NCBI GenBank assembly: GCA_036785705.1
Contig: JAWUZG010000357.1
Location: forward strand, 372,001 to 436,000
Length of the DNA: 64,000 nucleotides
Origin: Acanthornis magna
Lineage: Eukaryota > Chordata > Aves > Passeriformes > Acanthizidae
Direction of reading: 5' to 3'
The notes below the pieces were generated by a model that was given only the letters and a program-made list of their open reading frames with translations, was not told the origin of the DNA and did not search any database. The stretch's first letter is position 1; each line of letters starts with the position of its first letter. Positions 5,040 to 34,593 of the stretch are shown here, piece after piece. Both the position numbers and the translations under genes were made by a program.

Positions 5040-5514
5040 TCAGCCCCGCTCGGGGGGCCGCAGCGCCGGGCCGGAGACCCGCGGGGGGCGCGGCCGCGGC
5101 TTCGCCGTCCTCCAGCCTCGGGGAAGAGGGTCCTGAGTGGGGCCGGCCGAGGGTGCTGGGCGCAGGGCGGGCGCGGGGGTCAGCGGCAGGGGCTGCAGCG
5201 CTCCGGAGGGGACTCTTCGGGCGGCTCTGCGAGGGCACGGAGGGGCTGGAGCCTCTCCTGCACCCGGCTCCAGCACCCCGAGGGACCAGGGGACAGCCCC
5301 GCGGCCCTACCCCACACCGACCCGGCTCCCCTGTGCCCCCCAGCTCCCTGCCCTACGGGGAGGGCAGGAACGTCGCAGCAGCACGGAGCTCACCTGGCGG
5401 TGCCACAGGCAGGCTCTCCTCAGCCGCACTGAACTGCAGCTCGGCTCCGTCGGGCAGTCCCGAGCCCCGCGAGCGCGGACACCGATCCCCGGAGCGCGTC
5501 CTCCGCAGCACCGA
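5040..5514 (-). CDS. Spectraplakin-like C-terminal tail, last two coding exons
   Basis: Exon 5,394-5,514 (121 nt, phase 0 to 1) encodes SVLRRTRSGDRCPRSRGSGL then AELQFSAAEESLPVAPP, between a CCCCAG acceptor and a GTGAGC donor. The proposed last exon begins at 5,155 after a pyrimidine-rich GCGCCCAG acceptor. In the required phase it encodes 38 residues, ending WRTAKPRPRPPRVSGPALRP before a TGA at 5,040-5,042. It is basic and proline-rich. The last exon is the least certain in the gene: its frame and splice site fit but I recognise no homologous sequence. Neither the Gly-Ser-Arg repeat nor an SxIP motif, both present in MACF1 and DST tails, is visible. Confidence 0.5.
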
Positions 5515-8500
5515 CTGGGGAGGGTGAGGGTCACCGCCCGTGGCAGGTGGGTTGGGGGGGTCAGGACTTGGCGGGGGGCTCCGCAGCCCTTACCTTCCTG
5601 GCCAGGGGGCTGCTGGGGGCCGAGGCGCTGCTGTAGAGGCTGAGGCTGGAGTTGGAGCGGCTCGGAGACAATACTTTGGAGGAGGCGGCCGACTGGTTTC
5701 CCGCACACCTGGCGGCGGCGGCGGCTCCGAAGACGTCTGAGGACAGGTACTTCTCGTTGATCTTCAGATTGGTCCTTCCCTTCACTGGGGGCAACAGGGG
5801 AAGGGAGAGGGCTAGTGATGGGGTCCCAGCAGTGCGAGACCCTGGGGAGAGCGGTAAGCTGTGCCCCCCATGCCCCGCAGGCACCGTGCCGGGCACGGAG
5901 ACCCCACCGCACCAGTGCCTGGTGTAGGACCCCCACACGCACCTCTGCAGGGGTCATTCTTCACCAGGAACTCATCCAGGGCGATCCAGCCCCCACCCAC
6001 ACGCACCATGAGGGTGCTGCGCAGGATCCGCACCATCCGCAGCTGCTGGGACTCCCCGAACTGCGGGCAGAGGGACGTTGGGGCAAGGTGGGGCCAGGGG
6101 CAGGGCTGGGCATTGGGAAGGGACGCCGGAGCAGGTGCCAGCACCCAGACATGCCCATCCCTGTGGCACCTCCAGCCCCTCTGCCACTGCCCTCCTACAG
6201 GTGGCAGGGCTCCTCGGGGCATGGGGATGTGCCCCCTCCCTGCCAGGACCCCGGGCTGGGGAACAAGGGCTGGCACCCACGCCACTGCCTTGGGTTGGCA
6301 CTTACCCGGTACCTGTTGGCGCTGATCTGCTCCACCTGGAAGCGCTTGGCACAGTTGCACTGGGCCACTTGCCTGTTCACCTGTGGGGGCACGCTCAGCT
6401 CAGCCCCAGGCACGGCCCTCACCCTTCCAGCCCCTGCACCGCTGCCCCCCACCACACCTCATCCTGGATCTGGTCGGCGTCGGCAGAGCGGCGCAGCGGG
6501 TCACGGTTGGGGTGCAGAGCACTGACGAACTCGTAGTAGTCGATGAAGCCGTCACCGTTCATGTCGAAGATGCTGGCCACGGCATTCATCTCCAGGACGT
6601 TGGTGGGGAACTCTGTGGGGGGACAGGGACCCTCAGCCCCCCAATGCCAGCCCCCTCGGCCTCCTCCAGCCCCCCTGGCACTCACTGGAGGCAAGGACGC
6701 TCTCGATGAATTCCCGCTGGCTGATGCGCCCGTCCTGGTCCCTGTCGATGCCGCGAAAGACGTCCAGGACGCGGGACTTCATCTGGCTGATCCACTGCAT
6801 GTAGCGCTTCCTCCAGACCCCGAAGTCAAAGTGTGCGAACTCCTCCAGCTTGGAGGGGCACACAGGGGGATTAACACAACAGCAGGACCCCCTCATCCCT
6901 GCTATGCCAGCCAGGGTGACCATGCTGTCCCCACGTTCAGCCTGGCTGCTCCCAGCCCTGCCCCTGCCAAGGCTGCAAGGGGGGGTCTCTGCCCAGGTCC
7001 CCCATCTCTGGGGTGCACAGGGGGTCCTGGGCTCCAGCAGCCACTCTGGGATGTCAAGGGGTGTGCTGGGACTCCCAGCTGCAGGGACAGGGTCTGGGAT
7101 TATTGACCCCATCTGCATCTGACCTGGGGCAGGGGGTCCCTGGGCAGAAGATGAGAGGAACTACTCAGGACCCCCAGGGCAGTAGGGACCCCTGGGTTGC
7201 CCCTACCTCCCGCAGGCGCTGCAGGGCCGTCTCCAGCCGGTATTGCCGGTCCAGGGCCAGCAGCCAGAGCTGCTGCCAGCGGTGCAGGAGCTGGGCCATC
7301 AGGGGTGTCTGGGGCTCCAGCCCCCCAAGCGGCACTGCCGCCGTGCCCTGCGCCTTCCCACTGCTGCGGCGACCTGTGGAGAGGGGGGTGAGGGGGCGGC
7401 CGGGGGTCTGGGGTGCGGTGGGGGGGCAGTGATGGGGATCCTTACGCGTGGCCAGTCGGCGCGTGGCCGGGGGGCCCAGATCCACCGCCAGCTTCCGCTT
7501 GCAGCTCTTGGTGACCTTCTCCACGTCAGGCTGCTTGTGGTTCAGCTCCTCCATGAACACCTGCCACGGAGCGCTGGTGCTGAGTGCTTGCTGGCACAGC
7601 CCCGCCCGTGCTCCACAGCCCCGGGGACTGCAGACCAGCCCCACTGTCCCCCTCCCAGGACCCTGTGTGTGCTGCGGACATGGTGGGCTTGGGCAGCACA
7701 ATGCAAAAGGTGCTGTGTGTATGCAGCACCCACGACCCCAGCCCAGTGCTTCCCAAAGCCCTCGGTCAGGCCAGGTCCTTGCCCAGGGCTGGATGGGATG
7801 TGTTCGGGGGATGACACGGTCCCCAGGGAGAGCCGGGTTTGGGGTTCCTCACCGCGTGCTGGGCACTGAGCTCCTCCAGCTGCTCGACCTCTTCGGGCAG
7901 CGGCTCCTGGTCCCGCAGCCCCAGCGCCTCCTCGGCTGCCGTGATCCAGTCCAGGAGCTGCGCCGTCTCCTCCCGCTCGGCCGCCAGCACGGCCGCCTGT
8001 GCCCGCAGCCGCTCGCCCTGCTGCTGCGCCCAGCTCAGCACCTGCGGGGCAGCCAGGGGCAATGGGGCAGGGGGCACGGGGACGCCACCCCACTGCGGAC
8101 ATCAAGGTCTCCCATCCGGAGCAGATGCCACAGGGCCATTGATTTGGGGGAAAGAGTCACACCAGGAGCCACGGCCACCCTGGCCATGGGACAGGCTCAC
8201 AGACCCCCCAGCAACAGCCCTAGTGACAATGGGGTAGGGAGGTGGGGGCTCCACAGCCGACCATGACCTAGGGGCAGGCACATGGACCCCCGGCCAGCTG
8301 CTGCAGTAACCATGGGACAGGACCAAGCTCCTGTTGGGCAGCTGGGGCAGAGCTGGGGGTGCTGCCCACCCTGTGCCGAGGGTCCCCAGGTCTGTGTTGC
8401 GTGGACATGCCGGCTGCCCTCCCATTTTGGGGCGAGTGGTGTTGGGGGGGCAGCCCCAGGGCAGATCCAGAGCAGATCCTGCAGGTCTCTGCTCAATAAG

Positions 8501-33820: not shown

Positions 33821-34343
33821 CTGCCAGAGAGAGAGCGCGTTAGCGCCAGCACAGGGTGGGAGCCAGGGGGTGGAATTACCGCGAAGAAGGAAAAGGAGGT
33901 TGGTTTTACAGAAATCTGCCCATTTCTAACAAGAGTGTGTGCCAGGCTGCTACAGCATCCCATGGCCCACCCTGTGCTCCAGGGGTCCCGTGGCCCCCAT
34001 AGCCCTTGTGAGGGACAGGAAAGCCCCCATGGCCGGGGGGTTCTGGGGGCAGGAGCTGCGCGGAGCCAGGCTGGGGCGTGGGCTCTGGCAGACACCTGCC
34101 AATGGGTCATGGAGCCACATGAGTGTGAGGAAATCAACCTCAAGCAGAAGCACTTCCCAGATACACGGAGAGACAGACAGACAGACCGGCCGACCGCGGC
34201 GGGTGCGTCCCAGAGGACGGGTGAGCGGGTGGGCTGGCGGAGGCAGGCGCGCAGCGAAGCCCCTCGGTGGGTGAAGCGGCGGAGCGGAGGCAGGTCCCCC
34301 CGCGTGGCGCGGAAGCACCGGGCAGCGCCAGCGCGGCACTTAC

Positions 34344-34593
34344 GGTCGGGGCACCAGCTCCGCGGTGTGGTGGTGGGGACGTGCTGGGAGGCCAAGGCGG
34401 GGAGATGGGGCAGCTCTGGGGCCACGGTGCCGAGCCCCCTCCTCGCCGCGCTGAGGGTGAGTGGAAGGGGTCCAGGCAGCAGGCGTGTCTGGCTGTCCGG
34501 TGCCAAGGAGCCCGCGATGTCCTCCTCCGGCACACCGGCTGCAGTGGGGTGCACCACGGGGCCAAGGTCATCTCCTCCTTTGGGGTGCGGGGG
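34344..34593 (-). CDS. Candidate first exon between plectin and the 33.7-kb exon
   Basis: The segment has a CTTCAG acceptor-like start and an excellent GTAAGT donor. An ATG at 34,569-34,571 (context GAGATGA) opens 76 codons in the frame that leaves phase 0 at the donor, as the next exon needs. That frame looks compositionally poor. A second frame (GVPEEDIAGSLAPDSQTRLL) looks more protein-like but leaves phase 1. It might be a first exon whose promoter overlaps plectin's 3' end, or not an exon at all. Confidence 0.3.

Follow-up and report, generated by a model that had tools for sequence, protein, structure and literature searches.

Plectin of human and mouse is a textbook cytolinker that lacks a spectraplakin tail. 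What, then, is the gene that follows plectin directly in a bird, on the same strand, and encodes the parts of which such a tail consists? We addressed this question in a 64,000-nucleotide stretch of the genome of the passerine Acanthornis magna (contig JAWUZG010000357.1, positions 372,001 to 436,000; hereafter the window, whose own numbering is used throughout). The initial annotation of this DNA described a spectrin-repeat/EF-hand/GAS2 gene 3′ of plectin, and a 38-exon chain, Pfam searches and PDB matches confirm it. No standard name for the gene had come to light in that annotation; a tentative one, MACF1CTL, has been published (PMC8782857), and the gene is thus already known. We propose that bird MACF1CTL represents, beside MACF1 and DST, a third ancient clade of C-terminal spectraplakin halves in vertebrates and that it likely originated in the split of an ancestral plectin-type spectraplakin gene, and we assign this reading a probability of roughly two in three.

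The downstream gene lies on the minus strand and reads from an ATG at 23277 to a stop codon at 5182–5180, its 38 coding exons specifying 2,060 amino acids without an internal stop. Our model merges, by hand, a de novo exon chain with a protein-to-genome alignment; exons 20–24 come from the de novo chain, the guide protein (P0135) having placed none of them. Splice sites are intact, with AG before all exons except the first and GT after all except the last, and 30 of the 37 junctions are in phase 0. The encoded protein starts MGNSVSRPSCLG and continues with a spectrin rod, two EF-hands and a GAS2 domain. Across its full length, Pfam detects Spectrin (3.4e-106, 13 stretches), GAS2 (PF02187, 2.1e-29) and EF-hands, and no match to CH, plakin or Plectin-repeat families was obtained anywhere in the 2,060 residues. 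Four relatives checked in the same way likewise comprise spectrin repeats, EF-hand and GAS2, with neither a CH pair nor a plakin domain. The EF-GAS2 part finds its best PDB matches in MACF1 structures: the EF-hand pair, with both calcium loops intact (exons 32–33, 6848–6686 and 6612–6458), matches 5ve9 (chain A, E 2.4e-37), and the GAS2 domain, also called GAR (exons 34–35, 6380–6306 and 6060–5943), matches 5x57 (E 7.8e-40).

Counterparts of this protein occur in the sequence databases. A fragment from Cyanoderma (P0012) is 99% identical and covers 66% of a 328-residue query, and a 360-residue relative encoded on a 1,271-base contig (P0006) matches residues 1693–2060 at 85%, across eight exon junctions of the window. 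Because it spans this many junctions on a short contig, P0006 most likely derives from spliced RNA of a relative. A Nothobranchius protein named Plectin b (P0361) also begins MGNLVSRPSCLG; entries of this kind presumably derive from transcriptomes.

How old is the gene? A tree of the EF-GAS2 region was built from the window sequence and 58 relatives, of which P0036, P0068 and P0121 were dropped as short or divergent, leaving 56 rows and 315 columns. A branch with 100/100 support sets the 25 bony-vertebrate rows of the downstream-gene type apart from the other named groups, and the cartilaginous-fish rows (Pristiophorus, Carcharodon and Callorhinchus) join at their base. The resulting 28-row clade, again at 100/100, unites two sharks, a chimaera, coelacanth, ray-finned fish, amphibians, reptiles, birds and platypus, and lies outside MACF1 and DST. 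Inside this clade, ray-finned fish (100/93) are set off from lobe-finned vertebrates (96/86), and the branching broadly follows the species tree, with some inner forks open. The rows nearest to the window are other birds; the passerine Anomalospiza is 98% identical over the 315 columns. Forcing the lobe-finned copies (tetrapods plus coelacanth) together with tetrapod MACF1 cost 214 log-likelihood units, with a p value of 1e-37 in the approximately unbiased (AU) test, and forcing the cartilaginous-fish rows together with MACF1 cost 97 units (AU p 2e-43). The separate clade and the AU rejections indicate that the gene is old and not a late copy.

What might its product do? One indication lies at the protein start. 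When the first 430 residues were searched against proteins of about 1,130–3,600 residues, 172 relatives were returned; the 120 listed come from birds, Alligator, turtles, squamates, amphibians, Latimeria, sturgeon, bichir, teleosts and platypus, and 99 of them are 1,950–2,180 residues long. The motif MG....R(P/S)xC stands at residue 1 in 108 of the 120 (MGN in 104, MGS or MGT in four), in a search whose 430-residue query favors rows having the exon that begins MGN; it is internal in five and absent from seven. Among the 108, Ser occupies position 6 in 101, with Gly, Ala or Thr in the rest, and Cys stands at position 10 in every one. N-myristoylation follows a pattern of an M-G start and a small residue, such as Ser, at position 6, which the start of the window protein matches as a motif (MGNSVS, within MGN..SRPSCLG), and Cys10 is placed suitably for palmitoylation. 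The protein is accordingly of a type predicted to be N-myristoylated on Gly2, which would fasten it to membranes, and Cys10 is perhaps palmitoylated.

The exon carrying this start (exon 1, 22738–23312, minus strand) has its acceptor at 23312 and its ATG at 23277 within GCGCCATGG, and includes the beginning of the protein as well as a block reading EVTEVTETIVTEIVEVTEY. This block (22850–22950, minus strand) is near-identical from teleosts to birds, and its pattern matched no MACF1-named row among the proteins compared. As a separate observation, the frog MACF1 models P0206 and P0241 also have an MGNSVSC stretch near the N-terminus; lipid-anchor-like starts may therefore recur in spectraplakins. 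Upstream of the exon, a CpG-rich region without assigned strand (24001–25000) is a candidate promoter of a stand-alone gene. GC content and the observed/expected CpG ratio reach 0.82 and 0.95 at 24501–25000, and 0.72 and 0.81 at 24001–24500, and a GTGAGT donor lies directly after base 24550. The CpG peak and this donor plausibly represent a promoter and a 5′ exon.

A second indication comes from the C-terminus, a Ser/Arg-rich tail (exons 36–38: 5784–5594, 5514–5394 and 5226–5180, including the stop) in which a pattern scan found neither SxIP, the EB1-binding motif, nor GSR repeats. Tails were readable in 102 of the 120 listed relatives (18 had none), and we compared these with 92 rows, P0151–P0242, most of them named MACF1. 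SxIP is present in 0 of the 102 versus 86 of the 92, and GSR in one versus 89. Both calcium loops are kept in 100 of the 102 relatives, and the pattern of GAR cysteines, which bind zinc, is kept in 97. For MACF1, binding of the microtubule lattice by GAR and of EB1 by SxIP has been described (PMC8012552). With GAR kept and SxIP missing, we predict that the product binds microtubules through its EF-hand/GAS2 module but does not track their growing ends.

Is the gene separate from plectin? The initial annotation had it start next to plectin, with a first exon at 34593. This exon is doubtful as coding sequence: passerine alignments need two pieces there (34593–34426, then from 34415) and do not keep the frame, and the main start lies instead at 23277. 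The interval between plectin and this start holds two exons well conserved in other species and one less conserved, all on the minus strand. Linker exon 1 (33820–33680, phase 0-0; TSFSSPNKD..GELLSWVSDISRSWMG), upstream of the main start, is placed by five passerine models, with a longer 5′ edge in P0131; pieces of the GELLSW exon of gecko and woodpecker find it as the best of 225 open reading frames, and 0 of 200 shuffles score as high. The weakly conserved linker exon 2 (28333–28254), seen in the alignments of P0126, P0128, P0129 and P0131 and in a longer form in P0124, leads in frame into linker exon 3 (27948–27828; ..LLALRHWLDAIEKQLL..). The latter is supported by cross-species matches: LRHWL-exon pieces of platypus and gecko again select it as the best of 225 frames, a score that none of 200 shuffles reaches; the Amia and Kryptolebias pieces are equaled by 2 of 200 shuffles and the goby piece by 10 of 200, whereas that of a frog fails to match (71 of 200). 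We make no claim of homology between the LRHWL linker and a MACF1 rod exon (EFRKLV..LRKWL); the profile is small, its rod matches are weak and scattered, and the one containing LRKWL is found hundreds of residues beyond the plakin repeats. Two conserved linker exons in frame with plectin make a read-through spectraplakin possible, albeit unproven.

The linkers bring into play an alternative to a split, namely, that the downstream gene still forms a single spectraplakin gene with plectin, in which a splice at LLH^GTGGCC (after 34979) leads through the linkers into the rod, while the MGN exon serves only as an alternative first exon. We regard this as possible, if unlikely. The alignments of P0126, P0129 and P0131 do carry the linkers in frame from the plectin exon into exon 2 (22287), skipping the MGN exon, and conservation of the linkers from platypus and gecko to passerine requires a transcript that starts upstream of that exon; moreover, the plectin tail past GRRY is alike in gar, frogs and birds. 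However, GTGGCC makes a weak donor, plectin ends in a stop and an AATAAA of its own, and other CpG-rich stretches upstream (30001–31000 and 34001–34500; observed/expected 0.66–0.78) are possible promoters for the linker exons, with a kiwi model (P0266) starting at MER.. ahead of the LRHWL exon. A search limited to proteins of about 2,700–8,600 residues, and so blind to the stand-alone form, lists at least 22 plectin-fused models among 120 long matches, from birds, frogs, geckos, gar, Amia and two teleosts, a count that is not comparable with that of stand-alone relatives, as the start search is blind to the fused form. Another six of the 120 listed (P0134, P0135, P0136, P0145, P0149 and P0150) are apparently fused with epiplakin, judged by name, Pfam column and EF-hand motif position. 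Together with joining pieces that vary between fused models and between species, the apparent epiplakin fusions make fused models weak evidence either way, and they remove most of the weight that plectin fusions would have as strong proof of one gene. In favor of a separate gene are the conservation of its start codon and the CpG-rich region upstream.

Age, synteny and integrity bear on the remaining alternatives. That a copy of MACF1 or DST moved next to plectin late, in birds, is scarcely credible: only domains and database names point to MACF1 or DST, whereas the separate clade reaches cartilaginous fish, the AU test rejects grouping the lobe-finned copies with tetrapod MACF1, and shared synteny is reported in PMC8782857. 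The suggestion in the initial annotation that the gene is a retained plectin half, and not a translocated MACF1 or DST copy, is supported by the tree, in which the window copy is not nested in bird MACF1 or DST, and by the AU tests; the fission itself is a hypothesis set out in that paper. We give equally little credence to an inert relic, or pseudogene, in this bird, given 2,060 open codons in 38 exons with intact splice dinucleotides and the near-identity to Anomalospiza in the EF-GAS2 region. A bird-only insertion and an assembly artefact were considered and rejected. Several points nonetheless weigh against the split that we favor. The plectin-fused models would argue for one gene. The deep order of MACF1, DST and the third clade is weakly supported, with MACF1 plus DST at only 72/70, and the AU test does not reject a grouping of the clade with DST (p 0.21), MACF1 (p 0.48) or tetrapod MACF1 (p 0.48). 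MACF1 and DST as named are not monophyletic, P0046, named dystonin, falling within fish MACF1; the AU groups were in part set after the tree, with P0046 and P0048 assigned to fish MACF1 and P0051 to DST. The 92 MACF1-type rows of the tail comparison include several isoforms per species, and only part of them are placed in the tree. Finally, a third ancient clade alone is no proof of a former single transcription unit with plectin.

If the split did occur, the locus may work as follows. An ancestral plectin-type spectraplakin gene would have divided in two, with the CH pair and the plakin repeats staying with plectin, and the downstream gene would be driven by its own CpG-rich promoter. The nascent protein would be N-myristoylated on Gly2 and might be palmitoylated on Cys10; its spectrin rod would act as a spacer, and its EF-hand/GAS2 module would hold the microtubule lattice. 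The product could in this way tie microtubules to membranes without the SxIP that MACF1 and DST use to follow growing ends. A second, unproven output might come from plectin read-through splicing via the two conserved linkers, giving a full spectraplakin. We speculate further that in most jawed vertebrates the plectin locus still works as a two-output spectraplakin, supplying a lipid-anchored lattice binder without plus-end tracking and, by read-through, a third full-length spectraplakin, the latter lost in placental mammals; this extended picture we consider rather improbable as it stands.

Many jawed vertebrates other than human and mouse keep the spectraplakin tail as plectin's neighbor gene, which raises the question of how placental mammals manage without it. 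The conserved lipid-anchor motif and the lost plus-end motif make the role of the gene directly testable. Annotation based on human genes scatters it under MACF1, dystonin and plectin names: stand-alone copies in databases are called MACF1 isoforms 6/7-like, dystonin-like or plectin b. In the sterlet, Acipenser ruthenus, two copies (P0288 and P0290) are identical in the tree region, and one is named dystonin; the zebrafish copy is P0339, which one source calls XP_695869. In human, MACF1, DST and PLEC map to 1p34, 6p12 and 8q24, and their chromosomes carry KCNQ4, KCNQ5 and KCNQ3 as well.

The remaining exons of the downstream gene, all on the minus strand, encode the spectrin-repeat rod and its junction with the EF-hands. 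The rod (exons 2–29, 22287–7853) is defined by the exon chain, alignment and Pfam Spectrin. Exons 2–8 lie at 22287–22123, 21974–21814, 21422–21263, 21188–21111, 20641–20423, 20230–20111 and 20007–19900, with an alternative edge for the pair 21188/20641 at 21104/20664; exons 9–15 at 19807–19589, 19350–19147, 19076–18845, 18724–18498, 18411–18289, 17913–17812 and 17676–17575; exons 16–22 at 17242–17096, 16748–16593, 15753–15556, 15490–15362, 14870–14700, 14594–14439 and 13620–13414; and exons 23–29 at 12875–12756, 12479–12310, 11608–11449, 11119–10922, 9548–9423, 9116–8973 and 8041–7853. Exons 30–31 (7560–7446 and 7373–7207; VFMEELNHKQPDVEKVTKS) link the last spectrin repeat to the EF-hands. Past the stop codon, a pattern scan finds AATAAA at 4439–4444 (minus strand) as a candidate polyadenylation signal. 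On this side, toward EPPK1, about 4.4 kb of the window remain beyond the gene, and the bird models P0134–P0136, P0145 and P0149 apparently run on into plakin repeats. A tRNA call at 4841 was taken as false, having no proper anticodon, and Rfam yielded 0 matches at gathering scores.

At the other end, the last plectin exon lies within an open frame at 41461–34973 on the minus strand and comprises the rod end, plakin repeats and a GSR tail (20 Plectin-repeat stretches; Pfam, E 4.1e-303). As a coding exon it starts at about 41305, P0128 matching 41305–34979 at 97.6% (tblastn), and earlier plectin exons can be traced back to 63937 by match to a passerine model. The TGA stop (34972–34970, minus strand) stands only two codons beyond a possible donor, and the same kind of scan gives AATAAA at 34821–34826 (minus strand) as the candidate plectin polyadenylation signal. 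The tail past GRRY (34970–35110, minus strand) is akin to that of gar, Amia and frog models (..AELA.ALL..C..); human plectin, by contrast, ends short. Minisatellite arrays, apparently intronic in plectin and the downstream gene, occupy 10054–10838, 13797–14379, 26459–26912, 26930–27436, 47904–48760 and 51409–51708; examples are a 45-base unit repeated 17.6 times and a 37-base unit repeated 12.3 times at 96% match.

How does the window gene compare with known systems? A 2022 Scientific Reports article on epiplakin loss in cetaceans tentatively names MACF1CTL, places it 3′ of PLEC on the same strand and hypothesizes fission of one ancestral gene; it shows kiwi and mentions a zebra finch gene model that joins both genes (PMC8782857). 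The terms "promoter," "myristoyl" and "RNA-seq" each have 0 occurrences in its main text, and the passages considered here contain no tree of MACF1CTL against MACF1 and DST. Our searches of the Creative Commons-licensed PMC literature found no printed account of the lipid-anchor motif at the start, the absence of SxIP from the tail or the conservation of the linkers. In the window, from another bird species whose closest hits are passerines, the gene likewise follows PLEC immediately on its 3′ side and on its strand, with the same domains, and our tree places it among relatives that range from fish to platypus, outside MACF1 and DST.

The likeness to MACF1 extends over much of the protein. The gar copy (P0140) is 40%–41% identical to P0154, P0177 and P0193 over 1,861–2,016 residues, versus only 24%, and out of register, for the MACF1 protein P0168, and the EF-GAS2 region of the window is 60%–62% identical to nine MACF1-labeled rows, with calcium loops and GAR cysteines mostly kept. 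The window gene differs from MACF1 in having no CH pair, plakin domain, plakin repeats, SxIP or GSR, and in its shorter rod and its own MGN start. Dystonin (DST/BPAG1) has the C-terminal module in common with the window gene, which falls in a separate clade, and the dystonin tail of Silurus (P0021) contains SKIP motifs and GSR, unlike that of the window gene. The SxIP and GSR tail of a plus-end tracker of the MACF1/DST type is thus not part of it. With a complete spectraplakin it shares the rod, the EF-hand pair and GAS2, the CH pair and plakin domain occurring only in fused models. Plectin alone ends in plakin repeats and a GSR tail; plectin and the window gene together supply all spectraplakin domain types, with the CH pair and plakin domain judged from the fused models.

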